Source of the DNA: a virus
Length of the DNA stretch: 31,523 nt
Strand: one strand, 5' to 3'
IMG/VR virus record: IMGVR_UViG_3300050014_000790
Location: 1-31,523 of that record
Shown here: in pieces, positions 1 through 27,718 of the stretch
Layout of the letters: the number at the start of each line of letters is the position of its first letter
Numbering within the stretch: the stretch's first letter is position 1
Notes under the pieces: generated by a model
Database searches by the model: none
What the model saw: the letters and a program-made list of their open reading frames with translations, nothing else
What the model was told of the DNA's origin: nothing
Program-made: the position numbers and the translations under genes

Positions 1-66
1 GATTATATAATGATTGTAGATAAAGATTATTCTTTAATAAAAGACAAAATTAAAAATATATTATGA
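1..66 (+). CDS. C-terminal end of a probable homing endonuclease (partial)
   Basis: The frame is open from the first base and stops at 64-66, giving 21 residues whose core reads IMIVDKDYSLIKDKI. This closely matches the end of the PD-(D/E)XK homing endonuclease at 30405-31304 (IFILDKDYSKFYSI), so the truncated gene is probably a member of the same family. The stop overlaps the next start as ATGA (63-66), implying translational coupling. The catalytic part lies outside the window, so the assignment is an inference from a short tail. Confidence 0.55.
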   Translation, partial: DYIMIVDKDYSLIKDKIKNIL

Positions 67-2054
67 CTTTTTCTAGTTTAAAAAAGTGGGTATCAAAAGA
101 AAAAAATGATACCGGGATAACTGTTTTATTTCCAGGTTCATATAAACCCGCACACGGTGGCCACATTTCTCTAATTAAAAAATATAGCGATCATCCTGAA
201 GTTAATGAGGTTAAAGTTCTTGTTGGCCCGGGAATTCGTGATGGTATTACTCAGACTGTTGCCGTAGAGATTCTTCGTAAATTATGCGAGAATATGACTA
301 ATGTTAAAATTGTAGCTGTAACTTGGCCTTCTCCAGTTCTTACTGCTTATAAAATGATTCAGGAAGCTAAAGAAGGAACTTATGCACTTGCTGCTTCATC
401 TAAAGAGGAGGAGAATACTGATAGGATCAAAAGATTTGTAGAACAGCATGGTTCCAATGGCAAATTTAAAAGGTCTGGAATAAGTGTAAGAGAATTACCT
501 GTGGATATATCTCCGCTAACTTTTGTTGGAAGAAATGACAAATTTGAAGGGGAACCTATATCTGCTTCAGTTCTTCGTGAAGATTTAATGGCAAATGATT
601 TGGAACATTTTGTTACGGGTTATCCAGAAAATTCGGAAGAACAAATTAACTATGTCTATAATCGCTTAAAAAATATTGGTTCACTTACTGAAGAATTACA
701 CACATCAGGAACCCCAACAGTAAGTACCCCAACAACATGGCCAAATAATCCTTATAAATCCGCATTCCCAATTGTGGAAGATGATGACGAAGATGAAGAA
801 GTAAATGAATCACTTAAAATAAATAAAATGGCAGGAGCAGCAGGACATTTAATGTCACCCTGGGAAGCAGGAGATTTAAAATTTGGAGAAATTAAGGGGC
901 TTATTGAAAAGGCATTATCGGGTAAACTTGAAAATGCATCTGAAAAACTCGATGGTGCAAATTTACTTTTGACCTATCGTTGTAATGATGTCTATATTGC
1001 TCGTTCTTCAAAACATGTTCGCAATCATGGAGAAGAATCAATTAAATGGGATCTTATAGCAGAGTTTGTTAATACACCCGAAGCCAAAGAAGCTTATGGC
1101 AAGGCCGGAGCAGATTTTCATAATGCTTTCAAATCCGCTGATATTGATATTAAAAAAATATTTAACGAAGGAGAAAAATGGCTCAATATAGAACTACTTA
1201 ATCCTATGATGGAAAATATAGTTCCTTATGGTAATAGACAGCTCCGTATACACAATCTATGGGTGGTAGACAAAGCCGGAAAAACCACCGATGTTATCCA
1301 CAATGGCGAACTTGATCAGCTTGTAGAAGCTATAGGAAAAGTCCAAAATAGTGGAAAAATCGAAAGCACGCATATCATTGCTAAAACCAACAAAGTTCAA
1401 TTTAATAAAATAAAAGATTCAGAACTCATTAAAGAAAGCCTTCTCAAAAAGCTTCAAATGATAATGGACAAAAATCATTTGGATAACGAAAATACCATCG
1501 CTGATTATTTGTCGGAATCTTTTAAACCCATCATCAATGAATCCATATCTGACAAAGATCTTACTCAATCGCTCTCAAGAAGATGGGGTGCAGGGGATAA
1601 ATCAACATCTATAACCAAATTGCTTAAAGGAAAAGATGCGAATACAGTTTCATGGGTTAAAGAGATGGATGGAAAATCGGATCAGCAGGTTGGAGAACTT
1701 CTAGATCCTCTTGTAGAGATATTTTCTAATTTAGGTAATAATGTACTTCAAAATTTAGAGGGCATCTCATCTACTGAACCCGGCAAAACAAAAGAATCGA
1801 TTAAAAGGAAGGCAGAAGACGCTATTGAAAAGATAAGGGGATTTATGAATAATGAGAGTCAAGAAGAATATGAGAAAAAAACTCGTTATCTTGAAACTCA
1901 ACTTAAACGTCTTGTTCAAGCAGGTGGACTTGATGCAGTTGTTCCTCTTGAAGGAATCGTATTCGAGTATAATGGGAGAAATTTCAAACTTACAGGAAAT
2001 TATTTGCCAATTCTAAAGATCATCTCATTCTTCCGTTTCGGAAAGAATCAATAA
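63..2054 (+). CDS. Fusion of HxGH nucleotidylyltransferase and ligase-like (KxDG) domain
   Basis: 663 residues. Residues about 18-205 look like a cytidylyltransferase/NMNAT-type fold: the strand VLFPGSYKPA is followed by the nucleotide-binding HGGH at 31-34, and a later ISASVLR (166-172) fits the family's second ATP-binding motif. A Thr/Pro/acidic linker (about 206-250) leads to a second domain with EKLDGAN (Lys295), matching motif I (KxDG) of ATP-dependent DNA/RNA ligases and capping enzymes. LNIELLN (374-380) could be motif III, LEGIVF (629-634) motif IV and FKLTG (Lys642) motif V. A helical stretch of roughly 190 residues lies between III and IV. The fold calls come from motifs; the substrate is unknown. 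Phages often encode NMNAT-like enzymes of NAD salvage and RNA ligases, but I do not recognise this fusion. It is followed after 16 bases by thioredoxin, in an operon. The linker holds a VNES sequence (247-250) resembling a T4-type prohead-protease site. Confidence 0.7.
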   Translation: MTFSSLKKWVSKEKNDTGITVLFPGSYKPAHGGHISLIKKYSDHPEVNEVKVLVGPGIRDGITQTVAVEILRKLCENMTNVKIVAVTWPSPVLTAYKMIQEAKEGTYALAASSKEEENTDRIKRFVEQHGSNGKFKRSGISVRELPVDISPLTFVGRNDKFEGEPISASVLREDLMANDLEHFVTGYPENSEEQINYVYNRLKNIGSLTEELHTSGTPTVSTPTTWPNNPYKSAFPIVEDDDEDEEVNESLKINKMAGAAGHLMSPWEAGDLKFGEIKGLIEKALSGKLENASEKLDGANLLLTYRCNDVYIARSSKHVRNHGEESIKWDLIAEFVNTPEAKEAYGKAGADFHNAFKSADIDIKKIFNEGEKWLNIELLNPMMENIVPYGNRQLRIHNLWVVDKAGKTTDVIHNGELDQLVEAIGKVQNSGKIESTHIIAKTNKVQFNKIKDSELIKESLLKKLQMIMDKNHLDNENTIADYLSESFKPIINESISDKDLTQSLSRRWGAGDKSTSITKLLKGKDANTVSWVKEMDGKSDQQVGELLDPLVEIFSNLGNNVLQNLEGISSTEPGKTKESIKRKAEDAIEKIRGFMNNESQEEYEKKTRYLETQLKRLVQAGGLDAVVPLEGIVFEYNGRNFKLTGNYLPILKIISFFRFGKNQ

Positions 2055-2933: not shown

Positions 2934-3938
2934 ATGAGTCAAGAGAATTATGATGCTTTCTTAAATCCTGGTGTAGAAGCACCAGCAGCTTCAGCAAAAC
3001 AGACTGAAGAGTACAATCCATCCGCAGACAAAGGCAAAGGCGGAATCTACCAATCAATCATTCGTTTCGTTCCCTGGCATGTTGATCCAAAACACGGTTC
3101 AATCCAGGAAAAATGGGTTTCATATTTAGTTGATCCCCTAACTCAGCGTGGTCGTTATATTGACTGCCCTTCCTCGGTTGGAAAACCTTCACCACTTTCA
3201 GACATTTATTGGAAATTAAAGAAACACGAGAGTGTTCAGATGCAGAAACTTGCTCAGAACTTTTCACGTAGGCATTCATATGCTTCTTTAATCCAGGTCA
3301 TTCGTGATGAAAACAATCCAGAACTTGAAGGCAAGATTATGGTATTCCGTTATGGCGTAAAAATCTGGGAAAAGATTAATGCTGAACTTAAACCAGTTAT
3401 TGGTGAAGCTCACGATCCATTTGCAAGTTTAACCGGCAAGGCATTCGCACTTGTTATTACTAAGGTTTCCGGATTCAACAACTATGATCAGTCAAAATTT
3501 GTTGATAAAAGAATTCCTCTTTGTATCCCAAATGAACTTGGAAAACTTATTCCAATCACTCCTCAGAGCGATATGAAAGCTGTTTTCGAATGGGTAAAAG
3601 CTAATTCACCAGACCTATCCAAATACGCTTACAAAGAGTGGGATCAGGATACATTCGACTATGTTAACCACGTCATCTTATCTGTTACTGGCGAAGGCTC
3701 AGTTTCAAATAAATATGCCGGAATTGTTACCAAGGAAAATGCAAAGCCCGCTACTCAAGCACAGACTGCTAAGGCACCCGCCGGAAATGCAATCAGTGCA
3801 CAGGAAATTTCAATTGATAACCTTGACTTAGGTGAAGGTAATGCAATTGACGATCTTCCAGATTTCGATGCTCTTCCAACTGGACCAACCAATGTAAATG
3901 GGTTAGGTGACTTGGATGACATTATCGGTAACATGTAA
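2934..3938 (+). CDS. 32: Single-stranded DNA-binding protein, T4 gp32 family
   Basis: 334 residues (T4 gp32 has 301). Two blocks are diagnostic: ENNPELEGKIMVFRYGVKIW (about 123-142), matching the T4 block around ENEGKVFKYRFGKKIW, and KVSGFNNYDQSKF (about 178-190), matching KVSGFSNYDESKF. The C-terminus is Ala/Pro-rich and then acidic, ending GDLDDIIGNM like the T4 DDTDLDDLLNDL tail that recruits replication and recombination partners. The OB-fold core covers and protects ssDNA at forks and during UvsX/UvsY recombination. The region where T4 gp32 has its zinc ligands keeps only one cysteine (IDCPSS, about residue 82), so the zinc site seems lost. First gene of the replication operon; primase follows after seven bases. 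Confidence 0.93.
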   Translation: MSQENYDAFLNPGVEAPAASAKQTEEYNPSADKGKGGIYQSIIRFVPWHVDPKHGSIQEKWVSYLVDPLTQRGRYIDCPSSVGKPSPLSDIYWKLKKHESVQMQKLAQNFSRRHSYASLIQVIRDENNPELEGKIMVFRYGVKIWEKINAELKPVIGEAHDPFASLTGKAFALVITKVSGFNNYDQSKFVDKRIPLCIPNELGKLIPITPQSDMKAVFEWVKANSPDLSKYAYKEWDQDTFDYVNHVILSVTGEGSVSNKYAGIVTKENAKPATQAQTAKAPAGNAISAQEISIDNLDLGEGNAIDDLPDFDALPTGPTNVNGLGDLDDIIGNM

Positions 3939-5727: not shown

Positions 5728-6089
5728 TGAAAGCAAAATATGTTTTTGAATCCGAGCAATTGAAGAATATAGCTATTACCCTTCCTGCTAAGACCGATTG
5801 GTCTGAATATCAAAAGGAATTGGATCTTGTCAAAGACTATTCGCATGTTCTAAATTTTAAAGTTCCTAATTTTCCGACAAAATCGGGGAAGGGACAGAAA
5901 TGCTACCTTAATTATCAAGGTAATATAATTGGATGGATGGAAATTGTGGGCTTCTCGGGAGAATCATTTGATTGTGAGGTCACAGGAAAAGATTGGGCAG
6001 GAAAATTTATACAACGTTCTGGGCCTTTTAACAAAATAAATCCTATTCCAATGAAAGGATTCAGAGGTTTTAAATACGTTGACCTGTAA
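5727..6089 (+). CDS. Conserved-looking phage protein of unknown function
   Basis: 120 residues, translationally coupled to the UvsY-like gene by TAATG. The C-terminal half is rich in aromatic and glycine residues with a pattern of short strands: GWMEIVGFSGESF, KDWAGKFIQRSGPF and PIPMKGFRGFKYVD (about 104-117). The small beta-rich shape is compatible with an ASCH/PUA-like or other RNA-binding barrel, but no motif proves it. No signal peptide or membrane segment. It is the last gene before a homing endonuclease inserted ahead of UvsW. Confidence 0.75.
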   Translation: MKAKYVFESEQLKNIAITLPAKTDWSEYQKELDLVKDYSHVLNFKVPNFPTKSGKGQKCYLNYQGNIIGWMEIVGFSGESFDCEVTGKDWAGKFIQRSGPFNKINPIPMKGFRGFKYVDL

Positions 6090-6139
6090 TGAAACCATAT
6101 AGAGTAAACTTTTAGCAAAAAAGTAAATAAAAATCTGAA

Positions 6140-6150
6140 TATATAAAATA
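6140..6150 (+). promoter_or_regulatory. T4-late-type promoter box (TATATAAAATA)
   Basis: TATATAAAATA ends seven bases before the start of the GIY-YIG endonuclease, within a 68-base intergenic gap. The same 11-base string recurs before the starts at 13416 and 18266. Transcripts starting just downstream would be nearly leaderless. Similarity to T4 TATAAATA is seen; promoter function is inferred. Confidence 0.5.
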
Positions 6151-6157
6151 AAAAGAT

Positions 6158-6949
6158 ATGTATTCTGGAATTATTTATTGTGCAATTTCTCCATCTAACA
6201 AGAAATATTATGGAAAAACAGTCAGATCTTTTAATAAAAGAATTTGGGAACATTCAAGAAACCAAGGAAATTGGGCATTTTCTAATGCTCTTAGAAAATA
6301 TGGAAAAAATTCATTTAAATGGGAGATTATTGAAAAATATGAATTTGATTTAGTAGAAAAATTAAATGAGGTATTAAACGAAAGAGAAAAATATTGGATA
6401 AAAAAAGATAAAACAAATTTAAAAGAATTTGGATATAACATGACTGATGGGGGAGATGGAACTTCCGGACATCATTATCAATTTTCAGAAGAACATAAAA
6501 AGAAATTAAGTGAATCTCATAAGGGCATATTATTATCTCAAGAACATAAAAACAATATAGGTATTTCTAATAGAGGGAAAGAAAAATCAGAAGAAGCTAG
6601 AAAAAATATGAGTATTGGAAAAATTGGTATTCAATTTTCAAAAGAGCATAAACAACATATTAAAGAATCTAAAACGGGAAATAAAAATCCAAATTGGGGA
6701 AAAGAGAGATCTCAAGAAACAAAAAATAGGATCGGAAAGAGTAATTTTGGGCAAAAGAGATCAGAAGAAACTTGTAAAAAAATAGGAATTTCAAAAAAGG
6801 AAATTAAAATTTCAAATGAACATAAACAAAAAATATCTAAATATCGAATGGGAAAATCCCATTCAGAAGAATCAAAAAATAAGATGAGAATAAAAGCATT
6901 CGAAAGAGAAGCAAAAAAACGTTTAAATAATGAAATTCAAAATAAGTGA
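6158..6949 (+). CDS. GIY-YIG homing endonuclease with NUMOD3 repeats
   Basis: 263 residues. The catalytic GIY-YIG domain is at the N-terminus: GIIYCAISPSNKKYYGKT (4-21) supplies both signature strands, then KRIWEH with the expected Arg, EREKYWI with the catalytic Glu, and the closing YNMTDGGDG. The C-terminal half is a tandem of NUMOD3-type DNA-binding repeats, each roughly FSEEHKKKLSESHKG or RSQETKNRIGKSNFG. Lys, Asn and Ser content is high, typical of these mobile genes. It is inserted between the 5727 gene and uvsW, and its 3' end overlaps the uvsW start by 20 bases. It is closely related to the endonuclease at 25617. Confidence 0.93.
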   Translation: MYSGIIYCAISPSNKKYYGKTVRSFNKRIWEHSRNQGNWAFSNALRKYGKNSFKWEIIEKYEFDLVEKLNEVLNEREKYWIKKDKTNLKEFGYNMTDGGDGTSGHHYQFSEEHKKKLSESHKGILLSQEHKNNIGISNRGKEKSEEARKNMSIGKIGIQFSKEHKQHIKESKTGNKNPNWGKERSQETKNRIGKSNFGQKRSEETCKKIGISKKEIKISNEHKQKISKYRMGKSHSEESKNKMRIKAFEREAKKRLNNEIQNK

Positions 6950-8477
6950 AGATAAAAATTTTTTGATTTTAGATGATTCAACAGCTCTAGAATATGATCA
7001 AATTTGTTCTTCCTTTACCAAGAAAATAGATAATTGGTATATCATAAAGCGTAAGAAGCCTTATTGGGATTGCGAAATCCATTTTATGGATCGCTATAAT
7101 AGAATTCCAAAAGGTCTCTGGGGTGAAGTGAAGACATTTGCGAAAAAGTTCAATTTTCCTTTACAGATTGAGGGAACTGAATATATTTGGAACCACGATT
7201 TTAAAGAAGACGAATTCGATGAATGGGTAGAACAGTTCTTTCCAGAACCCATTAATCCTGAAGATTTTTATCCAAGACCATACCAGATTGAGTCATGTAA
7301 AAGAGGATTGAAATTTCGTCTTTGTACTCAGGAAATTTCAACTTCCGGGGGAAAGACCCTTATTGCTTATATGATATTCCGTTACTTGTTTGATAAAGGA
7401 ATTATAAAGAGCATGCTTTATGTAGTTCCTAATGTCGACCTTATTGGTCAGACCGAAGAAAAATTCTATTTATATGAAGACATTTCAGGACATAAGCCAA
7501 ATTGGAAAAGCCAGTGTGTATTTTCTGGTGCAAGTAAAAAACAAGATAAAGATCCCAATATCATATTCGGAACCTACCAAAGCCTCTGCAAACGCGGACC
7601 CGAATATTTTGAAAAATTCGATATGGTTCTTATAGATGAAACCCATCATGCCAAAGCTAATTCAATTCAAAATATTCTAGTTAAGTGTTTTAATGCTCAA
7701 TATAAAATAGGGTTAACCGGTACTCTTCCCCCAGAAGGATCCTGTAGTTCATTTACAATTCAGTCTTATTTAGGACCAAAAGTTTATACGATTGCCTCAT
7801 CCGATTTGATTAATGAAGGCAGAGCAACTCCTGTAAACGTAGTTTGTATTGAACTCGATTACTTATCAGAAGAGAAGAAGAAATCTCTTTATGATCTCCG
7901 TGATGTAAAAACTGATGAGAAAGACGGAGTAAAACTTCTTAACCTAGAAAAAGAACTAGCCAGAGATAGTCGAAAGAGGTTAGTTTATATTTGTGAGATG
8001 ATTCAAAAAACTAAGAAGAATACATTGGTTTTATTTGCGGATATAAAACATGAGTATGGACGTAAGATTTATAATTGGTTAAGGGAAAATAGCGATAAAA
8101 GTGTTTATTATATTGATGGCGGAACTAAATTAGATAATAGGGATTTTTATAAGGAAAAAATGGAGAAAGACGAAGATGTAGTTTTAGTTGCATCTACTGG
8201 AGTTTTCTCTGAAGGTATTGACCTTGTAAACATACACAACCTATTTATAACTGAATCCTCAAAATCGGAGATTATTGTCAGACAAATGTTGGGTAGACCA
8301 ATGAGACTTATGAGTGGCAAGGATAAGGTTATAGTTATGGACTTTAGTGATAATTATTTCTGGAATGGACCAAATAAATTTCAACGAAAGAACTATTTAA
8401 TGAGGCATTCTTTAGAAAGAGAACGCATTTATAAGGAAAAAAAATTTCCATTTAAAAGATTTAAGATAAGACTTTAA
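6930..8477 (+). CDS. uvsW: UvsW-type SF2 helicase
   Basis: 515 residues (T4 UvsW has 503). Superfamily 2 motifs in order: Q/motif Ia region YPRPYQIES (114-122), Walker A STSGGKT (137-143), DEAH-type box DETH (236-239), motif III LTGT (262-265), motif V FSEGID (426-431) and motif VI RQMLGRPMR (451-459). An N-terminal domain of about 110 residues with aromatic and basic residues matches the UvsW substrate-binding domain. UvsW unwinds R-loops and branched intermediates and helps the switch from origin-dependent to recombination-dependent replication. The start at 6930 lies inside the upstream endonuclease gene. The 3' end overlaps the convergent endonuclease by 17 bases. Confidence 0.92.
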   Translation: MKFKISEDKNFLILDDSTALEYDQICSSFTKKIDNWYIIKRKKPYWDCEIHFMDRYNRIPKGLWGEVKTFAKKFNFPLQIEGTEYIWNHDFKEDEFDEWVEQFFPEPINPEDFYPRPYQIESCKRGLKFRLCTQEISTSGGKTLIAYMIFRYLFDKGIIKSMLYVVPNVDLIGQTEEKFYLYEDISGHKPNWKSQCVFSGASKKQDKDPNIIFGTYQSLCKRGPEYFEKFDMVLIDETHHAKANSIQNILVKCFNAQYKIGLTGTLPPEGSCSSFTIQSYLGPKVYTIASSDLINEGRATPVNVVCIELDYLSEEKKKSLYDLRDVKTDEKDGVKLLNLEKELARDSRKRLVYICEMIQKTKKNTLVLFADIKHEYGRKIYNWLRENSDKSVYYIDGGTKLDNRDFYKEKMEKDEDVVLVASTGVFSEGIDLVNIHNLFITESSKSEIIVRQMLGRPMRLMSGKDKVIVMDFSDNYFWNGPNKFQRKNYLMRHSLERERIYKEKKFPFKRFKIRL

Positions 8478-9219
8478 ATTTACATTTTTCGCCATGAAAC
8501 TGGCCATAATTTCCTGGGTCCAATTCTCTCAAACAATATGGACATAAAATTTTATCAGGTTTTTTTCTAGTTTGGCAAGCTGTTTTCATGTGATCAATTT
8601 GTTCATCCGTTCTTTTTTGATCTTTTAAAGATATGGAAGCTTTTTCAGCTCGCTTTATCATTTTTTGTTCTGCTATTTTTTCTCCGTATTTTTCTACCCA
8701 TATAGAATAATTGGATTTTCCATACATCGGATTTTTTTCCCCAACTAATTTTCCCTTTCTTTGTTTTCTCCATTGTTTTTTAGTTTCCTCGCTATGGTGT
8801 TTTCCAAAATTTGGACATAATTTTCCGGTTTTTCCAAACATAAAACTATTTGGACCTAATTTTAATTCTCTTTGCAATTTTTTAGTTTTTTCAGAATGTT
8901 TTTTTCCAAACATTCCATTTTTTTCTCCCGAATTAGAATTTTTTAGTTTTTGTATGGTTTCTTCGCTATGGCATCCTTGAACCCCAATTCCGCCAGTAGG
9001 ACTTATATTATATCCATTTGGAACCAGAGTATTGAATTCTTTAATGTATTTTTCTTGGGCATCCGAAGCTTCCTTTCTAATTTCAAACCATTCTAAAATT
9101 TCTTTGAAGAAATTAGATTTACCATATTTTTTTATAGCATTTTTAAAAATATCTCCGCTTCCTATATAATATTTTTTTTCATTAAAATTAGTTGTCAAAT
9201 ATACATAATGTTTTTTCAT
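8461..9219 (-). CDS. GIY-YIG homing endonuclease with NUMOD3 repeats and a C-terminal zinc knuckle
   Basis: 252 residues on the minus strand. The N-terminus YVYLTTNFNEKKYYIGSG gives the two GIY-YIG strands (Tyr-Val-Tyr in place of Gly-Ile-Tyr), followed by DAQEKYIKEFNT with the catalytic Glu and GYNISPTGG. NUMOD3-like repeats (CHSEETIQKLKNS, KHSEKTKKLQREL, HHSEETKKQWRKQ) follow, and the tail has CPYC plus a later His and Cys, a possible zinc finger. Closest relatives in the window are the endonucleases at 12886 and 14054. It is inserted convergently at the end of the uvsW operon, overlapping uvsW by 17 bases, so it leaves the helicase intact. A TATA-like box lies ten bases upstream of its start. 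Confidence 0.92.
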   Translation of the reverse strand: MKKHYVYLTTNFNEKKYYIGSGDIFKNAIKKYGKSNFFKEILEWFEIRKEASDAQEKYIKEFNTLVPNGYNISPTGGIGVQGCHSEETIQKLKNSNSGEKNGMFGKKHSEKTKKLQRELKLGPNSFMFGKTGKLCPNFGKHHSEETKKQWRKQRKGKLVGEKNPMYGKSNYSIWVEKYGEKIAEQKMIKRAEKASISLKDQKRTDEQIDHMKTACQTRKKPDKILCPYCLRELDPGNYGQFHGEKCKFKVLS

Positions 9220-11632: not shown

Positions 11633-12841
11633 TTATCGTCTTCCGCTTGAGCCGGAAGAACCGCTTGAAGAACCGCTGGAAGATCTACTTCCGCCACTTG
11701 AACTGCTTGATCCCCCGCTAAAATTGGAAGATCCGCTATTGTAACTTCTTGATGGTGCTGAATAAGAGGATCCTTGCGAAGAATTATAGCTTCTATTTGA
11801 ATTTGAATTAGAATTAGAATATGAATTTCTAGATTCTACACTGCTTCTTGAAGGAGCTGTATATTCTCTCCTATTTGATGAACCCTGATTTGAATAATTC
11901 CTACTCTGCGTATTTGTGTTTGAGAAAGTTCTGTTTTGAGTAGAAGGCTGAGTTCTAAAATTTGTTGATGGAGTTACTCTTCTTTCCGGAATAGATGAAA
12001 TACTAGTATTAGCTCTGCTATTATTATAAGCAGGTCTTGTACTCATTCTGGGATTGTTATATGAAGGTGTATAACTTCTACGAGATTCCGAATAAGTTCC
12101 TCTTGATTGTGGAGCAACCCTATTTTGAGTTTGTCTATTGGATGTATTTGAAAGCGATGAGGGTCTTTCCTGTCTTCCATATCCGGGGTTTCTCATATTG
12201 TTGTTATGCTGAAAATTATTGTTGCTATAATATCCATTATGATAGTGGTTCCAGTTATTTCCATAATGATTGCCATAGTAACCATATCCAAAACCAAAGC
12301 CCCAACTATAATCAGGGAAAGGTCTCCAGTAATGACCAAATGTGGTGTAGCCAAAGTAAAAGCCACTATTGAATCCTGAATAGTAAGGATAATTGTATCC
12401 GTAATAAGGATTCCAACCCCATCCATAATCTTCATACATCCATTGATTGTAATACCAAGGTTCGGAATACATCCAACGATTAAATCCACCATAATAAAAC
12501 CTTCCTATCCTATTTGAATAATAGAAAGGATCAAGTTCATAAACATTAACTTCAATATTAGGATTGTCCTGCTTTAGCGTATCCACAAATGACTGAACAG
12601 GATCTACATAAGGTTTTCTAACCTTTTTAACTTTTTTGGCATCTGTTTTGGGACTGTAATAAAGGTCATCCCATTCTTTATTTTTTACTATCTGGGTTTC
12701 TTTTGTGATAGTATCCTGAGCTACATTCTGCTCTTTCTGTAGAGCATACTTCTCATAATTAGACATCTCCCGATTTGCATTCTGTGCGGAAGATATATAG
12801 AAAAAGAGAAGTCCGATAAAGATAATTAATAGTTTTTTCAT
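11633..12841 (-). CDS. Secreted low-complexity Tyr/Gly/Asn/Ser-rich protein
   Basis: 402 residues. The N-terminus MKKLLIIFIGLLFFYISSAQ is a classic Sec signal peptide with the SAQ end usual in Bacteroidetes, so the protein should be exported. Residues about 20-105 are charged. Residues about 105-205 are dominated by Tyr, Trp, Gly, Phe and Asn (for example WGWNPYYGYNYPYYSGF), and the rest is Ser/Asn/Arg/Gln-rich, ending in a Ser-Gly tract and RR. No catalytic motif is visible. Similar signal-peptide proteins with aromatic/glycine repeats are common in Bacteroidetes genomes, so this looks like a host-derived cargo gene, perhaps altering the cell surface. It stands alone on the minus strand with its own terminator. 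Confidence 0.85.
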   Translation of the reverse strand: MKKLLIIFIGLLFFYISSAQNANREMSNYEKYALQKEQNVAQDTITKETQIVKNKEWDDLYYSPKTDAKKVKKVRKPYVDPVQSFVDTLKQDNPNIEVNVYELDPFYYSNRIGRFYYGGFNRWMYSEPWYYNQWMYEDYGWGWNPYYGYNYPYYSGFNSGFYFGYTTFGHYWRPFPDYSWGFGFGYGYYGNHYGNNWNHYHNGYYSNNNFQHNNNMRNPGYGRQERPSSLSNTSNRQTQNRVAPQSRGTYSESRRSYTPSYNNPRMSTRPAYNNSRANTSISSIPERRVTPSTNFRTQPSTQNRTFSNTNTQSRNYSNQGSSNRREYTAPSRSSVESRNSYSNSNSNSNRSYNSSQGSSYSAPSRSYNSGSSNFSGGSSSSSGGSRSSSGSSSGSSGSSGRR

Positions 12842-12885: not shown

Positions 12886-13335
12886 GTGCCAAACTATCCT
12901 AAAATGGGAAAAAGATTACAAAAACCTGCTCAAACAAAAAAATTTAACTACGTTTACATTACTACCAATTTAATTAACGGCAAACAATATATTGGCGATC
13001 ATTCATCAGATATGCCAAATGATGGTTATTTGGGAAGCGGAAGACTCATTGCAAAAGCAATTAAAAAACATGGCAAAGAAAATTTTAAAAAAGAGATTTT
13101 AGAAAATTTTCCTACAAAAGACCAATCTTTTAATGCTCAAGAAAAATACATTAAAGAATACAATACACTAAATCCGAAGGGATACAATATTCATTTGAAG
13201 GGAGGATGGGATCCATTTTTAATTTTAGATTCTCCGATAAGATCGGAAAAATATTTAGAATCACTTAAAGGAGTGCATTATTCCCCTAGCGAAGATCCGG
13301 TAATACATATTCCATTTAAGCACGTTCAAAGATAG
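12886..13335 (+). CDS. GIY-YIG homing endonuclease, catalytic domain only
   Basis: 149 residues from a GTG at 12886; an ATG at 12904 (MGKRLQKPAQ) is an equally good start. The GIY-YIG core is intact: NYVYITTNLINGKQYIGDHS, then LGSGRLIAKAIKKHGKENF, NAQEKYIKEYNT with the catalytic Glu, and GYNIHLKGG. It is very close to the enzyme at 14054, but where that one continues into NUMOD3-type repeats this one has about 40 residues of unrelated sequence (WDPFLILDSPIRSEKYLESL onward). It may be a minimal or degenerate endonuclease that has lost its DNA-binding half. It lies between the divergent secreted-protein gene and the 13416 operon. Confidence 0.85.
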   Translation: MPNYPKMGKRLQKPAQTKKFNYVYITTNLINGKQYIGDHSSDMPNDGYLGSGRLIAKAIKKHGKENFKKEILENFPTKDQSFNAQEKYIKEYNTLNPKGYNIHLKGGWDPFLILDSPIRSEKYLESLKGVHYSPSEDPVIHIPFKHVQR

Positions 13336-14053: not shown

Positions 14054-14578
14054 TCAAAAATCCAGCAGTGCTGGATTTTTTGTTTTGTTTTTATTCCAGG
14101 GAATTTGTCCAGTTTTCTTTCCTTTATTAACATTGGGGGTTCCCTTATTAATCTTTTTTAAAATATTTTTTTGGCCTTCTGTCATAGGGATTCCTTTATT
14201 CCAAGGAATCTGATTTTTATTATAATCTTTACCAATATGAGATTTACTCATCTTATCTCGAGTTTCTTTTGAAATGCTATCCTTTGCTTGATGACCGCCT
14301 TTAGGACTTATATTATATCCATGAGGTTTTAAAGTATTGTATTGAATAATATACCTTTCTTGAGCATCAAAAGCTTTTTGTTTTGTTGGAAAAAATTCAA
14401 GAATTTCTCTTTTAAATTTTTTTCGGCCATATTTTTTCCTTGCATTTTCGAAATAATTGCCACTTCCCAAATAGTTTTTTGTATGCCAACAATTTAAATC
14501 ATCGGTAGAATGATCTCCAACATACTGTTTTCCATCAACAATATTGGTAGTAATATAAACAAAGTTAAATTTTTTCAT
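14054..14578 (-). CDS. GIY-YIG homing endonuclease
   Basis: 174 residues on the minus strand. KKFNFVYITTNIVDGKQYVG gives both signature strands, followed by NYLGSGNYFENARKKYG, FDAQERYIIQYNT with the catalytic Glu, and GYNISPKGG. A short DNA-binding tail has NUMOD3-like pieces (ISKETRDKMSKSHIG) and two copies of a QIPWNKG/QIPWNKN element. The catalytic domain is clearly paralogous to those at 12886 and 8461. It is inserted convergently behind the 13416 operon, and its final codons are embedded in that operon's terminator. Confidence 0.92.
   Translation of the reverse strand: MKKFNFVYITTNIVDGKQYVGDHSTDDLNCWHTKNYLGSGNYFENARKKYGRKKFKREILEFFPTKQKAFDAQERYIIQYNTLKPHGYNISPKGGHQAKDSISKETRDKMSKSHIGKDYNKNQIPWNKGIPMTEGQKNILKKINKGTPNVNKGKKTGQIPWNKNKTKNPALLDF
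14056..14085 (+). terminator. Intrinsic terminator of the 13416-14037 operon
   Basis: An 11-bp perfect stem, AAAAATCCAGC at 14056-14066 with GCTGGATTTTT at 14070-14080, has a three-base loop and is followed by TGTTTTG. It lies 18 bases after the small gene. The same bases, read on the other strand, encode the last residues (PALLDF) and stop of the convergent endonuclease. Confidence 0.85.
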
Positions 14579-14702: not shown

Positions 14703-16490
14703 ATGCTAAATACGCTAAATCAGATTTTAAAAAAAGAAGGATCCGAATACGTAGACAGATTACTAAGTGAAAATGTTATTATCACTGAAAAACTCGATAC
14801 CTATCGCATCCTTTTTGAAAATGTCGATGGAGAAATCAAATTCTTCAAGAAAGATAACACTGAACTAGAATTAATAGAAAGAGTTCTTACCAATATTTGG
14901 GAAGATGCTATTGTCGAATTGTCTGTCATATTAGAAGAACACAAGGATTCCCTTCCTCAAGGAGTTAGATTTGGTCTAGCTTATACCCCTGTTGAAAAAC
15001 CAATAAGACTTATCTATAAATCTATACCTGCTTATATCCTTACAGATATAACTACTCGTAAGAATAATAAAGTAGTTCACGTTTATGATGAAGCTTCTGT
15101 TTTTGAATGGGCTACCGCATTAAGTTTAGGAAGACCTCCAGTTATTTTTCAGGGAAAACTGAACGAAGATCAAAAACGAACTCTTATATCCTATGCTTCA
15201 GAGTTTACAGGAGATGAAAAGCCTCTTTCAGATATGCTTAAAGAAAAATTTCAGGGAACATACTCTAATGAACAATTAATAGAGGGAATAATTATCAAAA
15301 GTGGGGATAGACTTGCTCAAATTGTTTCTTATGAATTTGATTTATTAAACGAACAATATGAAAAGGAAGAATTTTCTAGGGATTTTTATGATTTAACTAT
15401 CATGAATCTTAATTCCTTCCTTGACAAGTATAATTTTCCAATTCTTGAAGGAAAAAATCCGGAAGATTTATATCTAGAGATGGTTTGCGATATTTTCAAC
15501 AATTATTGTGAAAATTCATCAGTAACTGAAAACATGTTGCCAGAATATCTTACCCCTCCAAAATTTGGGTATAATGGAGATCTCAATACATTACTACTTA
15601 AGAATAAAAAGACAATAAGTATACTTGAAAATGGAAACAAAGTTCATGAATCCATATTTAAAGTAATACTTTCATCATTAAGAAAATACAAAAAAGAATA
15701 CGGTCTTCTTAACGAAGCTGCTGTTCAGAAATTTAATACCTATGTTTATCTCATCAGCGAAAAGATGAATAAACCTCTAGATCCTCCAGAAAACATTGTA
15801 GCAATCAATGAAGCTCGTTCTGAAAATATCGTTGTTGATGCTGTTAATAAGAAAATGGCGTCGGACATCGATAACATGAGAGTTATTGCTTCAATTCAGA
15901 AAGCTTTCGAACCTAAGGGCGAAGACATGGCAAAAGGAAAAGAAAAATGCGTAGTTTATCTTACCGAATTCCGTCCATTTACCCAAGCTCAAGCCGAGAA
16001 TATCCTTGGAATGCAAAAAATGTGGAATTGTCCAGTTGTTTTAGCTTCCATCGAGAACAGACGTAGGGTTACAGGTGAGAAGTTTTTCTTTAGCGATAAC
16101 TTAATGAAAGCTCAGATTAAAGCTTTTGCTGATGCCAATAAGGAAGCAGTTCCTGCTTATTTTGTTTTATCTGACTGGGATCTTTACGGAGTATTTAATT
16201 TTTGTCGACCAAGATTCGAACCTGCAGCAATCATTACAGATAAAGGTAAAAAAGCAGACTTGGTTCTTCAACTTTACTTTGAAGAAGAAATTATGAGCCA
16301 ACGATTAGGCGTTATTAAAGATTTCAACATTGGGGAAATGGAGAACAAAGATCAGTTATTGGCCTTCAGATCTATTGAAGACAACGTATTTTATAACTTC
16401 AAGGAACTTGTTCCCCCTTCTATTTTGGGACTTTATGATTCAATGCAATCCGAATGGAAAACATGGAATGGAAAAATTCTTAGAAAATAA
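14703..16490 (+). CDS. Ligase-like domain fused to an HxGH-type nucleotidylyltransferase-like domain
   Basis: 595 residues. The N-terminal part has ITEKLDTYRILFE (27-39), matching ligase/capping-enzyme motif I K-x-D-x-x-R with Lys30 as candidate AMP acceptor, and LIEGIIIKS (192-200), matching motif IV. A helical middle leads to a linker with VAINEAR (366-372). Residues about 413-585 resemble a nucleotidylyltransferase Rossmann fold: CVVYLTEFRPFTQAQAENIL (416-435) aligns with the first strand and loop of the protein at 63-2054, but its H-x-G-H is replaced by T-x-A-Q, so catalysis by this domain is doubtful. Domain order is the reverse of that protein. It has its own promoter region and is followed after 28 bases by the 16519 gene. 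Substrate unknown; the ligase-like call is from short motifs. Confidence 0.65.
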   Translation: MLNTLNQILKKEGSEYVDRLLSENVIITEKLDTYRILFENVDGEIKFFKKDNTELELIERVLTNIWEDAIVELSVILEEHKDSLPQGVRFGLAYTPVEKPIRLIYKSIPAYILTDITTRKNNKVVHVYDEASVFEWATALSLGRPPVIFQGKLNEDQKRTLISYASEFTGDEKPLSDMLKEKFQGTYSNEQLIEGIIIKSGDRLAQIVSYEFDLLNEQYEKEEFSRDFYDLTIMNLNSFLDKYNFPILEGKNPEDLYLEMVCDIFNNYCENSSVTENMLPEYLTPPKFGYNGDLNTLLLKNKKTISILENGNKVHESIFKVILSSLRKYKKEYGLLNEAAVQKFNTYVYLISEKMNKPLDPPENIVAINEARSENIVVDAVNKKMASDIDNMRVIASIQKAFEPKGEDMAKGKEKCVVYLTEFRPFTQAQAENILGMQKMWNCPVVLASIENRRRVTGEKFFFSDNLMKAQIKAFADANKEAVPAYFVLSDWDLYGVFNFCRPRFEPAAIITDKGKKADLVLQLYFEEEIMSQRLGVIKDFNIGEMENKDQLLAFRSIEDNVFYNFKELVPPSILGLYDSMQSEWKTWNGKILRK

Positions 16491-18265: not shown

Positions 18266-19717
18266 ATGTTACCTATGGAAAGAAATTATGTACCGACAAC
18301 TCTGGATCAGTATCTTAGTGAGTCGAAAACAATAACACTCAAAAGAGGGTATGGTGAGAAGAAACCCGTAGTTGTGGGTTCTAATGCTCCCATCCGTAAC
18401 CAGATCCTAGCCTATGTTGCTGAAAATCAACGTGTATCAAAAGGCGATCTTAAAAGATTTATCGCTGGTCTTAATGAGGGAAGCAGAAATCCAAACGCTT
18501 CCGCTATTATGTGGCTAAAAAGAAACTCTCAGTTCTTCGTTATGGAAGCTAAGGCTGGCAATACCTTCTTCAAACTTTCACCAGTTGGAATAAGACTTAC
18601 CAGTCGTTTTGTTGCTCCTATGGGTGCACCAGTTTCTTTAACTGAAAAGAAGAAAGAGAAAAAAGATGATAATTTTGACTTTGTGGATACCAAAAAAGGC
18701 TATCCAAGAAAAGGTCTAAATGATGATCTTAAAGAAGAAGAGGAAATGTGCGATGATTGTAAAAAACCAATGGCACAGTGCGAATGCAGCGAAAAAGATA
18801 AGACTAATGAAGCTGAAGAAGCAAGAAAAACCAGAATTAAAGCTATTATTGAAAACATACGTGCTAAGAGAACTGCTAAACCAGTTAACGAAGCTGAAGA
18901 AAAGAAAGGTGAAGAAGCTGATGAACTTTCATTTGACGATCTAGATTTAGATGGCGAAGAAGGTGCTTCAAAAGAAGAAAAACCAGAAGGTGATGATCTT
19001 GATCTAGGCGGCGATGATAAAAAAGAAGGTGATGAGGATACTGAAAAGGTAGAAATTACCGAATTTGTAATTACCGTTACTAATGCAGATGAAGCTATTA
19101 AAGAGCTTGAAGAACTTGGTATTCCTGCTGAAAAAGTAGAAGACGAAGAAGAACATGAGGAAAAAGAATCCCCAGAAGAAGAAAAAGCTGAACACGAAGA
19201 AGGCGGATCTGAAGAAGGAAAAGAAGAAGGAGAAGAAAAACCAGAAGGTGAAGAAGATGGATTAGATCTTGAAGAAGCTGAAGACCCGGATAAGGATGGA
19301 ATGGATGATTTAGGCGGTGACAAACCAGCTGATGACGACATCGAAAATCCCGATCTTGATCCAGAACCAAAAGAGGAAGAAGAAACTCCACAGGAAAAAA
19401 TTAAAGTTTCCGTAGATCATTGGGAAGCTCTTAAGGGATGGTTAGAAGGAAAAGGCGTAGACATTGAAGAAATGTTTGGCGGCGAAGTTGAGGTTGAAGA
19501 AGAACCAGAAGTTGATGGAGAAGAAGGTGGAGAAGGAGACGAACTTAATCTCGATGACAATCCTGAAGGTGGCGAAGGTGATGATTTAGATTTGAATCTT
19601 GATGATACAGTTGAAGAATCGACTGAAGGTCCCGAAGACATGATGGACGCACCAGCACAATCATTAGGTGATAGAATCGCAGATAAAATCGCAGATAAGA
19701 TTATAGCAAAACTCTAA
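18266..19717 (+). CDS. Very acidic protein with winged-helix-like N-terminus and Cys knuckle
   Basis: 483 residues. The first 20 (VPTTLDQYLSESK) resemble a short leader. Residues about 42-115 (PIRNQILAYVAENQRVSKGD, then FVMEAKAGNTFFKLSP) have the helix and wing pattern of a winged helix-turn-helix. A cluster CDDC-x6-CEC (Cys162, 165, 172, 174) could bind zinc. The rest is dominated by Glu and Asp, with two short alpha/beta islands (VEITEFVITVTNADEAIKEL and IKVSVDHWEALKGWLE) that look related. TNEA, VNEA and LNEG sequences occur. Such acidic, extended proteins are typical of T4-type prohead core components, but DNA mimicry is also possible. An in-frame ATG nine bases downstream is an alternative start. 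It stands as a single-gene unit between promoter box and terminator. Confidence 0.75.
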   Translation: MLPMERNYVPTTLDQYLSESKTITLKRGYGEKKPVVVGSNAPIRNQILAYVAENQRVSKGDLKRFIAGLNEGSRNPNASAIMWLKRNSQFFVMEAKAGNTFFKLSPVGIRLTSRFVAPMGAPVSLTEKKKEKKDDNFDFVDTKKGYPRKGLNDDLKEEEEMCDDCKKPMAQCECSEKDKTNEAEEARKTRIKAIIENIRAKRTAKPVNEAEEKKGEEADELSFDDLDLDGEEGASKEEKPEGDDLDLGGDDKKEGDEDTEKVEITEFVITVTNADEAIKELEELGIPAEKVEDEEEHEEKESPEEEKAEHEEGGSEEGKEEGEEKPEGEEDGLDLEEAEDPDKDGMDDLGGDKPADDDIENPDLDPEPKEEEETPQEKIKVSVDHWEALKGWLEGKGVDIEEMFGGEVEVEEEPEVDGEEGGEGDELNLDDNPEGGEGDDLDLNLDDTVEESTEGPEDMMDAPAQSLGDRIADKIADKIIAKL

Positions 19718-20804: not shown

Positions 20805-21134
20805 GAGCCGAAACTGTAAATTTTGAAAGAAACAATAATCCTAGAGCTATGCTTGGGGTTGGTGGCATCAATTTTAATAAGAAATTCAATGACTTGTTTG
20901 AAGAATCAATGAAATCATTAGAAGGAAAAACCATCACAGCTCGAATGATTAGACATTGGACTGAAAAAAGGAGATAAAGATATTTATCTTTCTTTGTGGG
21001 TTTTAGATGGAGACGGTAACAGATATGATTTAGGAGTATTAGATAAAAAGATTTACATAGATTAATGGAAAGAATTTACTTTATCCAAGGGGTATAGAAA
21101 AACACATAAAAATTGGATTTTACATGAAAGCTGA
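20801..21134 (+). pseudogene. Broken small gene: frameshift in A6 run plus in-frame stop
   Basis: The intact first part (20801-20977, 58 residues, MRAETVNFERNNNPRAMLGV) starts with the ATGA overlap and carries the shared PxxMLGVG motif; earlier in-frame starts such as the TTG at 20768 are unlikely. It ends at TAA 20975-20977. Shifting by one base at the A6 run (20964-20969) opens a coding-like continuation, GDKDIYLSLWVLDGDGNRYD and so on, to TAA at 21063-21065; past that stop the same frame gives WKEFTLSKGYRKTHKNWILH and ES, then TGA at 21132-21134. That last stop overlaps the HAD gene start exactly as the HES-ending 19808 gene overlaps 20400. So an original gene of about 110 residues seems to carry two lesions. 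A sequencing error in the homopolymer, or slippage at the A6, could account for the first but not the second. Confidence 0.65.
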
Positions 21135-21684
21135 AACAGTAAGAGGAAAATTAATTAAAAAATGTTATTGTTTTGATCTCGATGATACCCTTATTAAAAC
21201 CGATGCAAAGACAAAGGTTTATAAAAGAGGAAAGTATCTTCGATCCTTATCTGCTGCAGATTTCAATACATTTGTTAAACAGCCAGATGAAGAATTAGAT
21301 CTTTCAGATTTTAAAGACCCCAAATTTATCATCAATGCTAGAAAATTTAAAATGTGGCCTGCTCTTTATAATATAAGTATGGCAGTTCAGCAAGGTAAGA
21401 GCCAATCGGATATTTATATCCTTACAGCTAGATCTTCCCACGTTAAATCAACCATACATAGTTTTTTTGAAAAAAATCACGTAAAAATTCCAGTGAACAA
21501 TATCATTACAATTGGTGATGATGCTGGATTGATAAATATTGCAACAGTTAAAAAAGAAATACTCAGGGATTTGAAATCTCGCTATGATGAGGTGACATTC
21601 TTTGATGATAGCCCCGAAAATATTAAAATGGCATCAGAAATCGGAGGAATTCGTACCCGCTTGATAGATGCCGTGAATATATAA
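21124..21684 (+). CDS. HAD-superfamily phosphatase
   Basis: 186 residues. Motif I is FDLDDTL (17-23; first Asp the nucleophile, second the acid/base), motif II is ILTARSS (about 99-105, Thr), motif III is likely the Lys of VKKEIL (about 141-146), and motif IV is FFDDSPENI (about 159-167, metal-binding Asps). The cap is small. This arrangement resembles the phosphatase domain of phage polynucleotide kinases and related nucleotide phosphatases, so a 3'-phosphatase or nucleotidase is possible; the substrate is not determined. It starts MKAETV, like 20400 and 20801, and its start overlaps the end of the broken gene. Confidence 0.88.
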   Translation: MKAETVRGKLIKKCYCFDLDDTLIKTDAKTKVYKRGKYLRSLSAADFNTFVKQPDEELDLSDFKDPKFIINARKFKMWPALYNISMAVQQGKSQSDIYILTARSSHVKSTIHSFFEKNHVKIPVNNIITIGDDAGLINIATVKKEILRDLKSRYDEVTFFDDSPENIKMASEIGGIRTRLIDAVNI

Positions 21685-25616: not shown

Positions 25617-26270
25617 ATGATTACGATGGTAAATGGAATCATTTATTGTGCAATATCGCCATCCAATAAAAAATATTATGGCTATTCATCTTTAAGTCTT
25701 GAACAGAGAAAAGCAGGACATAAGGATAGATTGTTGAGAGGATGCAAATCCCGTTTCTTCTCAGCTATAAGAAAATATGGATGGGGAAAATTTAAATGGG
25801 AAATTATTGAAGAGTTTACGGCGGAAGATAAAAAAGAATTGCATAATATTTTATGTGAACACGAAACTTATTGGATTGATAAGGATAGGACTTATCTAAA
25901 GGAATATGGGTATAATATGACTCATGGGGGAGATGGCAGATTGGGATCCGAAATGTCAGCAGAAACCAAAGATAATTTAATAAAAAAGTTAACTGGAAGA
26001 TCCACGGAGAGAAAGGGAAAATCATTTAAATCTGAAATGATTCAAAAATATGGGGAGAAAGAAGGGATCAAAAAATATAATGATTGGATTAAAAAAACAG
26101 CCGATTCTCATTGCAAACCAATATTGCAATTAGATAAGAATGATAATTTTATAAAGGAATGGCCATCAATAAAAATGGCTCATGATAATGGATTCGAAGG
26201 TACAAATATATGTGCTTGCTTAAAAGGAAAAAGAAAAACCCACAAAAAATATAAATGGAGGTATAAATAA
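25617..26270 (+). CDS. GIY-YIG homing endonuclease with a NUMOD1-type tail
   Basis: 217 residues from ATG 25617; an ATG at 25626 (MVNGIIYCAI) is an alternative. GIIYCAISPSNKKYYG is identical to the start of the enzyme at 6158, followed by GHKDRLLRG, CEHETYWID with the catalytic Glu, and YNMTHGGDG. Unlike that enzyme the C-terminus is a NUMOD1-like module: PILQLDKNDNFIKEWPSIKM, then NICACLKGKRKTHKKYKWRY. It sits immediately before the polymerase gene, with its stop overlapping the polymerase start as TAATG. A GGAGG at 26258-26262 inside its last codons is one of the few Shine-Dalgarno-like sequences in the window and lies eight bases before the polymerase ATG. Confidence 0.92.
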   Translation: MITMVNGIIYCAISPSNKKYYGYSSLSLEQRKAGHKDRLLRGCKSRFFSAIRKYGWGKFKWEIIEEFTAEDKKELHNILCEHETYWIDKDRTYLKEYGYNMTHGGDGRLGSEMSAETKDNLIKKLTGRSTERKGKSFKSEMIQKYGEKEGIKKYNDWIKKTADSHCKPILQLDKNDNFIKEWPSIKMAHDNGFEGTNICACLKGKRKTHKKYKWRYK

Positions 26271-27718
26271 TGGTCGTGAATATAGAGCAGAGGAAAGGAA
26301 AGCTCATAATTTCCCATATCAATAAAGAGGGAAAAGTGGCTTTTATGCAACTGAACATTCCGCCTGCCCATCAATATGTATATGTTTATAACAGACAGAG
26401 TTATGGGTCAATGACAGGTATCAAATCTTGGGATAAAAAATCAGTTCGAAAAGTTCCATCAGAATTCCTTTCACGTTATCGTATTCAAGAGTTCCTTATG
26501 GATGCTGGAACAGAATTAACAGCACCATTATTTGAACGTAATCCCCCTCAGCTATACTCGTGTGACATCGAGGTCGATGTAGAAGAGGAAACAGGTTTTC
26601 CAGAAGCTAGCGAAGCTGCAAACAGAATTAATACTATTGCATGGAGTCATTATCCCGATGTAACAGTCTTCGGACTTAAACCTCTCGATGGGCCAGCTTG
26701 TGATCGTATTGAGAAGGGGATAAACAAACACTTGGAAAAGATTGGTAAAGAATATAAATTTGTCTACAAAGTATATCAAAATGAAGCCGATATGCTTTAT
26801 GATTTTCTTTACAATTATGCTCGTCATGCACCACTTATAACCGGATGGAACTTCTGGAATTATGACTGGAGATATATTACAAATCGTTGTAAAAAACTCC
26901 ATATTGATTATTCTTGGATGAGTCCTACCAAACAATGGTACAAACATAAAATAATGGATCGCAATGAACGTGTAGATCTTATGCTACCTCAGCATAAATT
27001 GATTGTTGACTACATGGAGATCTATAAAAAATGGGACAGAAATATTGATCCAAAAGAAAATAATTCCCTCGAATTTACTGCTGAAGCTGCTTTAGGAATT
27101 ACTAAAGTGAAGTATCCCGGATCATTTACAGATCATTACAAAAAAGATTTTGAAGATTATGTTCTTTATAATGCTATTGACTCTATTCTTGTAGAAGGAA
27201 TTCACGAGAAACTTAAAACCATGGGGACTTTTCTTGGTTTGGGTAATATTACAGGAGTTGAAGCAATGAGTGCTTGGTCCCCAATAGCAATGTTGGAAGC
27301 AACTGCAGCTCGATATGGATATAAAAGAGGCGTTGTATTTCCTCAAGCAAAGTATGATAGGAAAAGGGAAAGTTACGAAGGAGCTTTTGTATTTAAACCA
27401 ACTCCCGATTTGTATGGATGGGTAGCTTCTTTTGACTACGCATCTCTTTATCCTTCAATCATGAGGCAGTTTAAAATCTCAATTGAAAACTTCATTACAA
27501 AAGATAAAAACTTTAAAACCAAACCAAATGAAATTAAATGTTCTTCAGGAGCAGTTTTTGATGCCTCAGAAGAACCTCTTTTGCCAGAGATTCTTACTGA
27601 TTTTTATGCTCAAAGAAAAGAGGCTCAAAAAATTACTAAGGAAGCAGAAATGGATGTAATCGAACTTGAAAAGATATTAAAGAAAAGAGAGATGCAGTCA
27701 TCCGAGGCATTTAAGTAG
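26270..27718 (+). CDS. 43: N-terminal half of a family B DNA polymerase (split gp43)
   Basis: 482 residues, about half of T4 gp43 (898). The 3'-5' exonuclease is complete: Exo I SCDIEV (Asp99, Glu101), Exo II GWNFWNYDWRY (Asp199), Exo III YNAIDSIL (Asp304). Polymerase motif A is present, FDYASLYPSI (Asp389). The chain stops after REMQSSEAFK, just where motif B (KxxxNSxYG) should follow; neither it nor motif C (DTDS) is found in any frame downstream within the window. Spacing of the motifs matches T4. Several T4-like phages have gp43 divided into two polypeptides near homing endonucleases, so the second half probably lies elsewhere in the genome. A frameshift or nonsense mutation is less likely since no continuation is seen. 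The upstream endonuclease is coupled by TAATG. Confidence 0.9.
   Translation: MVVNIEQRKGKLIISHINKEGKVAFMQLNIPPAHQYVYVYNRQSYGSMTGIKSWDKKSVRKVPSEFLSRYRIQEFLMDAGTELTAPLFERNPPQLYSCDIEVDVEEETGFPEASEAANRINTIAWSHYPDVTVFGLKPLDGPACDRIEKGINKHLEKIGKEYKFVYKVYQNEADMLYDFLYNYARHAPLITGWNFWNYDWRYITNRCKKLHIDYSWMSPTKQWYKHKIMDRNERVDLMLPQHKLIVDYMEIYKKWDRNIDPKENNSLEFTAEAALGITKVKYPGSFTDHYKKDFEDYVLYNAIDSILVEGIHEKLKTMGTFLGLGNITGVEAMSAWSPIAMLEATAARYGYKRGVVFPQAKYDRKRESYEGAFVFKPTPDLYGWVASFDYASLYPSIMRQFKISIENFITKDKNFKTKPNEIKCSSGAVFDASEEPLLPEILTDFYAQRKEAQKITKEAEMDVIELEKILKKREMQSSEAFK

Follow-up and report, generated by a model that had tools for sequence, protein, structure and literature searches.

An HxGH adenylyltransferase fused to an RNA-ligase-type domain in a phage protein, and its reverse-order counterparts

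RNA repair in jumbo phages (PMC7824862) and the NAD systems of phages (PMC9503650) have each been reviewed, and the passages of the two reviews considered here treat RNA ligases and HxGH adenylyltransferases separately; those of the former list Rnl1, Rnl2 and RtcB ligases and no HxGH-fused ligase. Among the HxGH enzymes, CoaD, NadD and the nicotinamide mononucleotide adenylyltransferases (NMNATs) NadM and NadR (PF01467) share one fold together with the HxGH and ISxxxxR motifs. The partner domain is a Nudix domain in NadM and a P-loop kinase in NadR. Here we describe a phage protein in which this fold has a ligase fold as its partner, an architecture that is neither that of NadM nor that of NadR. 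The protein, P0001, has 663 residues and is encoded by a complete open reading frame (ORF) with an ATG start at positions 63-2054 (+ strand) of IMG/VR virus record IMGVR_UViG_3300050014_000790, the whole 31.5-kb stretch of which is called the window below. P0001 and the relatives of its ligase half are referred to as family A; a second protein of the window (14703-16490) belongs to a reverse-order family, family B.

The domain architecture of P0001, an HxGH adenylyltransferase followed by an RNA-ligase-type domain, can be considered secure with high confidence. In the AlphaFold2 model (predicted local distance difference test, pLDDT, 81.5; predicted template-modelling score 0.62) residues 17-210 (nucleotides 111-692) adopt the fold of phosphopantetheine adenylyltransferase (PPAT), NadD and the NMNATs, as also found by VIA and by profile matches. 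The VIA alignment with E. coli PPAT has a Z of 15.8 (153 residues, 2.8 A) and that with NadD a Z of about 13.7; the fold does not separate NMNAT from PPAT. The domain contains the HGGH signature at residues 31-34 (153-164) and, at residues 166-172 (558-578), ISASVLR, the second adenylyltransferase motif (IS-x-[ST]-xxR type), so that HxGH, ISxxxxR and a Rossmann-like adenylyltransferase fold occur together. An acidic linker (residues 211-254; 693-824) follows, which is disordered in the model (pLDDT < 50 at 209-260) and differs in length between family-A relatives. The remaining residues 255-663 (825-2051) form the RNA-ligase-like nucleotidyltransferase domain, with motif I EKLDG (residues 294-298; 942-956) and the putative nucleophile Lys295, Arg314 at the motif Ia position (1002-1004), Glu377 at the motif III position in WLNIELLNP (1191-1193), a mostly helical segment at about residues 453-620 (1419-1922), motif IV EGIVF with Glu630 (1950-1964; LEGIVF is 629-634) and motif V KLTG with Lys642 (1986-1997; FKLTG is 641-645). 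The KxDG lysine, motifs Ia, III, IV and V in this order and the fold are those of the ATP-grasp/covalent nucleotidyltransferase RNA ligase superfamily.

An alignment of 41 family-A relatives shows E294, K295, D297, G298, R314, E377, E630, G631, V633, F634, Y636, K642, T644 and G645 to be invariant, which, as judged from these sequences, is more than chance. The ISxxxxR motif is also present, and the HGGH of P0001 is aligned to TGAH in freshwater relatives and to GRFQPFHxGH-type signatures in remoter ones. An initial annotation of the window, made from the sequence alone, had read HGGH, EKLDG with Lys295, LEGIVF with Glu630 and FKLTG with Lys642 as an HxGH domain joined to a ligase-type KxDG domain. 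The ORF translation places all four at the residues it gave, and both domain assignments are upheld by the predicted folds and the invariant motifs; R314, E377, ISASVLR and the protein at 14703-16490 did not figure in it. It had also looked to a fold search for NMNAT-type and ligase-type matches, and the predicted structure gave matches of the PPAT/NadD and of the RNA-ligase type. For the C-terminal half Foldseek gave RNA ligases (E ~6e-4 to 3e-3, probability 0.82-0.99), namely the Palaeococcus RNA ligase (8uce; E 6e-4, probability 0.99), the homodimeric Pyrococcus enzyme (2vug), T4 Rnl2 and T4 Rnl1, the two archaeal Rnl3-type enzymes and T4 Rnl1 being its top ligase matches. Of the earlier suggestion of "ligation, capping or repair", an RNA-ligase-type fold is retained, whereas DNA ligases and capping enzymes are absent among the best 50 Foldseek matches. 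Compared with the Rnl3-type ligases and T4 Rnl1, P0001 has two additions, the N-terminal adenylyltransferase and a long helical stretch that separates motif III from motif IV. Its ligase domain is minimal, ending just past motif V, and in the model neither a separate OB domain nor a domain Ia-like NAD+-binding module is seen. Strand positions and fold matches in the model speak for a predicted common pocket holding Lys295 and Glu630.

At the level of profiles the protein is less conspicuous. The Pfam search gave no match of P0001 to RNA_ligase (PF09414), and CTP_transf_like (PF01467) stays under its curated cut-off (E 0.21; 12.2 of 21 bits), which is exceeded by the relatives P0003 (35.3 bits) and P0005 (31.8 bits). 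PHROG 395, "cytidyltransferase", matches with an E of 4e-4, and the adenylyltransferase half of family A is nearer in sequence to PPAT (profile E 1.3e-5) than to NMNAT. Only chance matches of P0001 were found among PDB sequences, and a match to the "Defense against restriction protein A" profile (E 0.032) was judged to be a helical chance match. The best BFVD matches (E down to 3e-48) are "Cytidyltransferase-like domain-containing" proteins of uncultured phages, so that the databases already contain the family, with its ligase half unnamed.

The ligase half is widespread. A tblastn search found it in Microcystis phage Mel-JY01 and in LR756508, both with the two halves in one chain, and in LR756500, where it stands alone immediately before a family-B protein; a stand-alone HxGH relative was found in Lak phages. 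Two alignment-based scans of viral contigs, seeded with short conserved patterns, gave 563 and 558 relatives of this half, which puts the number of IMG/VR contigs encoding one at 558 or more; a single-sequence scan of viral contigs with P0001 found no relatives. The freshwater group has the same two-domain layout in 674-693 residues, with the N-terminus LFPGGFKPLTGAHL. Marine relatives are mostly 1100-1750 residues long and have GRFQPFGPHH-type adenylyltransferases and varied inserts. Their chains often include a P-loop kinase of the zeta-toxin/AAA_33 type, and ParB-like, Zn_protease (PF05618)-like or other domains are also found. One of the kinase regions gives a weak PHROG polynucleotide-kinase match. 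As multi-domain chains they resemble the polyvalent phage proteins (PMC5512222), virion-delivered chains that combine several diverse effector domains, whereas the protein of the window has two domains only; the combination of ligase and HxGH was not found listed in the literature on polyvalent proteins. In marine phages and in Mel-JY01 the family-A genes lie near the large terminase gene. In a marine relative of 1203 residues (L085:2483-6094) the region between the HxGH and ligase halves matches Zn_protease (PF05618) and contains a GS..DVD motif of the Pol-beta-like type. The initial annotation did not count the pairing among characterised phage enzymes, and we likewise found no paper describing a ligase-HxGH fusion; in phage sequences, however, the pairing is very common, usually labelled only "cytidyltransferase".

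The second protein of the window (14703-16490, + strand, 595 residues) is homologous to the second protein of LR756500 and has the reverse order, a ligase-like N-terminal and an HxGH-type C-terminal half, with both active sites degenerate. Its residues 1-220 (14703-15362) have a T4 Rnl2-like fold (Foldseek 2hvq, E 8.2e-7; VIA Z 12.8 over 187 residues) and the model also matches the Naegleria gruberi RNA ligase (Z 13.1). T4 Rnl2 and the Naegleria enzyme resemble family-B residues 1-215 in fold and in the motif order I-III-IV-V, but have no HxGH domain and share 12-15% identity with family B in the alignments. Motif I reads EKLDT (14787-14801) with its lysine kept, while the motif III glutamate is Ala93 and the motif V lysine Gln206. 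Residues 413-589 (15939-16469) have the adenylyltransferase fold (VIA Z 13.9 to NadD and 13.6 to NMNAT), and FRPFTQAQAE (15969-15998) is a degenerate GRFQPFHxGH signature. A scan seeded with six sequences found 201 viral relatives with the ligase first and the HxGH domain second, and better-kept members match PF09414 (E 5e-5 to 7e-5) and PF01467 (3e-5 to 1e-4) in one chain. For the C-terminal half the nearest PDB sequences are NadM/NMNAT (MJ0541, E 1.9e-5). Whole families A and B align in hhalign over their HxGH halves only. Between the ligase halves the profile link is weak (E 0.005 at motif I), and we therefore do not claim the two families to be recent paralogues. Directly upstream of family B, 38 of 76 loci have a gene of about 310 codons (e.g. 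L161:4032-4955, similar in L162-L230), with a GS-x12-DxD motif and no Pfam match. RlaP (PF10127) was considered as the family-B partner and rejected, being found in just 2 of 23 records; the upstream gene is therefore called Pol-beta-like by motif only.

The two families appear to be connected by their pattern of residue loss. In non-redundant family-B proteins, with three truncated members left out, we scored the lysines of motifs I and V and the glutamate of motif III. Where the C-terminal half is present and family A was not detected, all 54 proteins keep the three residues. By contrast, the motif III Glu is lost in all four proteins that occur beside family A (the window, L157, L158 and L163), three of which have also lost the motif I Lys. 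The eight proteins without the C-terminal half, all in giant-phage-type records, are likewise without the motif I Lys. In a comparison of whole records, family A was present in 3 of the 37 family-B records and absent from 34, and out of 28 family-A records only LR756500 holds a full family B. The HxGH halves are complementary: in L157, L158 and L163 family A is without its HxGH half and family B keeps TxGH, whereas in the window family A has HGGH and family B has lost its HxGH. Taken at face value, the sequence pattern suggests that selection maintains a live ligase and a live HxGH module, one of each. The eight homologues L005-L008, L227, L233, L235 and L236, several of them in giant phages of 634-735 kb, have D or N for the motif I Lys and no C-terminal adenylyltransferase, and are apparent pseudoenzymes kept as genes.

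Gene neighbourhoods suggest a link to RNA-end healing. Family B is preceded in L224, on the same strand and with a single small gene intervening, by genes for a HAD_SAK_1 phosphatase (E 8.7e-5) and a P-loop kinase, an arrangement that by analogy resembles end-healing operons. Together with the kinase fusions of the marine relatives it is reminiscent of the Swiss-army-knife HAD/polynucleotide kinase/ligase RNA repair sets of phages (PMC7824862). A phosphatase of the HAD family, encoded in the window at 21124-21684, is weakly similar to PNK3P (E 0.0076) and could be an RNA or DNA 3'-phosphatase partner. The fusion showed no strict linkage to NadV. NadV-type NAPRTase genes were found in 11 of 23 large records, but not in Mel-JY01 (190 kb, deposited as complete) or LR756508 (484 kb), which both encode the fusion.

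The best mechanism we can offer, and one to which we give even chances, is RNA-end sealing or repair by a ligase working with an adenylyl-transferring partner. P0001 would be a two-module phage enzyme acting on RNA ends, broken or modified ones. From the chemistry of its family, Lys295 would take AMP from ATP (or NAD+) and pass it to the 5'-phosphate of a broken RNA, which would then be sealed, and the evolutionary pattern makes the HxGH module a probable partner of the ligase rather than a chance chain-mate. Repair of RNA cut by host defence nucleases is the likely setting. We expect the two modules to cooperate because two distinct ligase subfamilies are each paired with an HxGH module, in opposite domain orders, and because catalytically dead ligases were seen only in phages in which the other family supplies a live one and in proteins that have lost their HxGH half too. 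The reverse-order family and its residue losses thereby lend indirect support to the coupling of the two activities that the initial annotation proposed. The same-chain kinase of the marine relatives and the HAD_SAK_1 phosphatase and kinase of L224 also back the proposal. As HxGH enzymes adenylylate a phosphate, three substrates come into question. By rough guess, the module would make NAD+ from nicotinamide mononucleotide (NMN) or, slightly less probably, adenylylate or de-adenylylate an RNA terminal phosphate, or, less probably again, act on another small molecule.

Several observations weigh against RNA-end sealing by a cooperating pair. The ligase match of P0001 is modest (Foldseek E ~1e-3, with a low template-modelling score in the whole-model alignment), and the VIA matches listed for P0001 are all to the adenylyltransferase domain and none to a ligase; since that domain filled the list, this is not evidence against the ligase fold. 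Of the 41 aligned family-A proteins 16 match PF09414, which favours the ligase assignment, but the matches are weak (best E 0.011, below the cut-off); family B, at 23.9 bits, also falls short of the cut-off of 27. All four phages that carry both genes belong to a single clade, in which the window has a very long branch, so that the loss of the ligase may be a single event; the eight family-B members without the C-terminal half also form one clade, leaving few independent events. For many of the 54 family-B members the assessment covered only some 11 kb of flanking sequence, and fragments are common among the records. In L205, L206 and L208 the ligase is intact and the HxGH degraded (DNLD), contrary to strict coupling, and a place among late or structural genes, as in marine phages, is not by itself an RNA-repair setting. 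In addition, an Rnl1-type RNA ligase occurs in 16 of 24 large records and an ATP-dependent DNA ligase in most family-B records. These separate enzymes rule out the fusion as the sole RNA or DNA ligase of the phages, and because most of them have the Rnl1-type ligase, the fused enzyme is probably specialised, with a special substrate of its own.

Other explanations differ mainly in the role given to the HxGH module. The chain could hold two independent counter-defence activities without a chemical link, an NMNAT restoring NAD+ after a host NADase and an RNA ligase restoring cut tRNA, fused for co-expression or packaging. The NadM/NMNAT-like sequences of the family-B C-terminal halves, the NadV genes in about half of the large records and the likeness of the marine relatives to polyvalent proteins, where unrelated activities share a chain, are in line with this. 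Nevertheless, we consider it rather unlikely, since Mel-JY01 and LR756508 have the fusion without a NAPRTase, family-A adenylyltransferase halves are nearer PPAT, and the joint loss in family B would not be expected, although that loss concerns few clades and giant phages carry stand-alone HxGH proteins. About as unlikely, in our estimate, is a module that proof-reads or primes RNA ends, by adenylylating the terminal phosphate or by stripping AMP from abortive 5'-App-RNA by pyrophosphorolysis and so letting the ligase finish. HxGH enzymes of the PPAT and NMNAT kind join AMP to a phosphate on a partner substrate, and the pairing of PPAT-like and NadM-like subtypes with two ligase families looks as if the shared partner were the ligase product and not one metabolite. 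We know of no HxGH enzyme that uses an RNA end, however, and E. coli NadD and NadR gave neither RNA capping nor decapping in vitro (PMC8131947).

A further step down in probability, the ligase-like half might not seal ends but carry adenylyl groups covalently, or use its ligase fold to modify proteins or small molecules; or the protein as a whole might belong to the virion. The minimal domain with its helical segment and without an OB domain, the position near the large terminase gene and the separate Rnl1 in most records would suit such a role; the kinase fusions and upstream HAD_SAK_1 phosphatase of relatives would not, and the fold matches are RNA ligases and not other ATP-grasp enzymes. 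It is improbable that the ligase uses NAD+ as AMP donor and frees NMN, from which the HxGH module rebuilds NAD+ with ATP. The half-reactions of NAD+-dependent ligases and NMNATs are complementary, and one chain or operon would suit channelling; yet NAD+-dependent DNA ligases need a domain Ia-like NAD+-binding module, of which none is seen in P0001, the nearest folds are ATP-dependent RNA ligases, and an ATP-dependent ligase would suffice with fewer parts. More improbable still is a post-transcriptional modifier of RNA 5' ends, in which the ligase half would adenylylate or hold the ends while a nucleotide, for instance NMN, is exchanged or attached by the HxGH half, so that phage or host RNA gains or loses an NAD-type cap. 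NAD capping by the fusion is speculative, and a 2021 review knew of no post-transcriptional NAD-capping enzyme (PMC8131947).

If the preferred explanation, a ligase sealing RNA ends together with its adenylyl-transferring partner, is correct, a common phage "cytidyltransferase" label becomes a testable enzyme in hundreds of marine and freshwater phage contigs and in two arrangements. Next to Rnl1 and Rnl2, phages would then seem to have an RNA ligase of a third kind. RNA-end repair would also be tied to the chemistry of adenylyl donors, NAD+ perhaps among them, and this could account for the way in which these phages withstand defences that cut tRNA or deplete NAD. Two named phages, Synechococcus phage S-PM2 and Microcystis phage Mel-JY01, would allow a test.

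S-PM2, which was reached through BFVD, has a possibly analogous pair. Its protein S-PM2d138 consists of DUF6267 (PF19782, E 1.6e-111) fused to CTP_transf_like (E 1.3e-6), with KWDG, PEGFV and KIVDR in the order of the ligase motifs; in cyanophages, DUF6267 with KWDG, PEGFV and K[LIF]V[DN]R is found beside or fused to an HxGH "cytidyltransferase" (PHROG 395/3041). By tblastn 521 phage records match, mostly Synechococcus phages, and the matches listed usually span two adjacent genes, for a hypothetical protein and a cytidyltransferase. The DUF6267 and cytidyltransferase genes are adjacent in S-PRM1, P-SSM3, S-RIM2 and S-RIM12 and two genes apart in HTVC008M. Aligned by hhalign, DUF6267 and family A are collinear over HLEHxED/GHMNHPxDD, KxDG and PNTxxY/NVIxY, with a score of 26.5 against 25.2 for the best of 60 column shuffles and a reported probability of 2%. 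PF19782 has no match on P0001, and no description of DUF6267 was found in the literature. We take homology of DUF6267 to family A as a lead and not as a finding; through it, the proposed function may extend to hundreds of cyanophage genomes. DUF6267 is encoded near replicative helicase genes in S-PM2 (L252:43485-45257) and in the Vibrio Straboviridae phage EniLVp02 (L259:1165-2247), where no cytidyltransferase is annotated beside it.

By profile matches, the gene content of the window is of the large-phage type, with genes for a gp32-like protein (2934-3938), a UvsW-like helicase (6930-8477), a family-B DNA polymerase (26270-27718) and a ribonucleotide reductase (27787-30330). The polymerase has only 482 residues (exonuclease and start of the palm) and the versions in L157 and L158 have 470 and 467, so that DNA polymerase B looks split in this phage group. 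ORFs that by eye resemble GIY-YIG homing endonucleases lie between the genes at 6158-6949, 8461-9219 (-), 12886-13335, 14054-14578 (-) and 25617-26270. On the opposite strand, 11633-12841 (-) encodes a 402-residue protein that begins like a signal peptide, MKKLLIIFIGLLFFYISSAQ, and has a body rich in Tyr, Asn and Ser; its style suggests a secreted protein of the Bacteroidota type. Finally, 18266-19717 encodes a very acidic low-complexity protein of 483 residues, and in a Lak phage (L004) the stand-alone HxGH gene is followed by one for a similar acidic protein (5760-7877).
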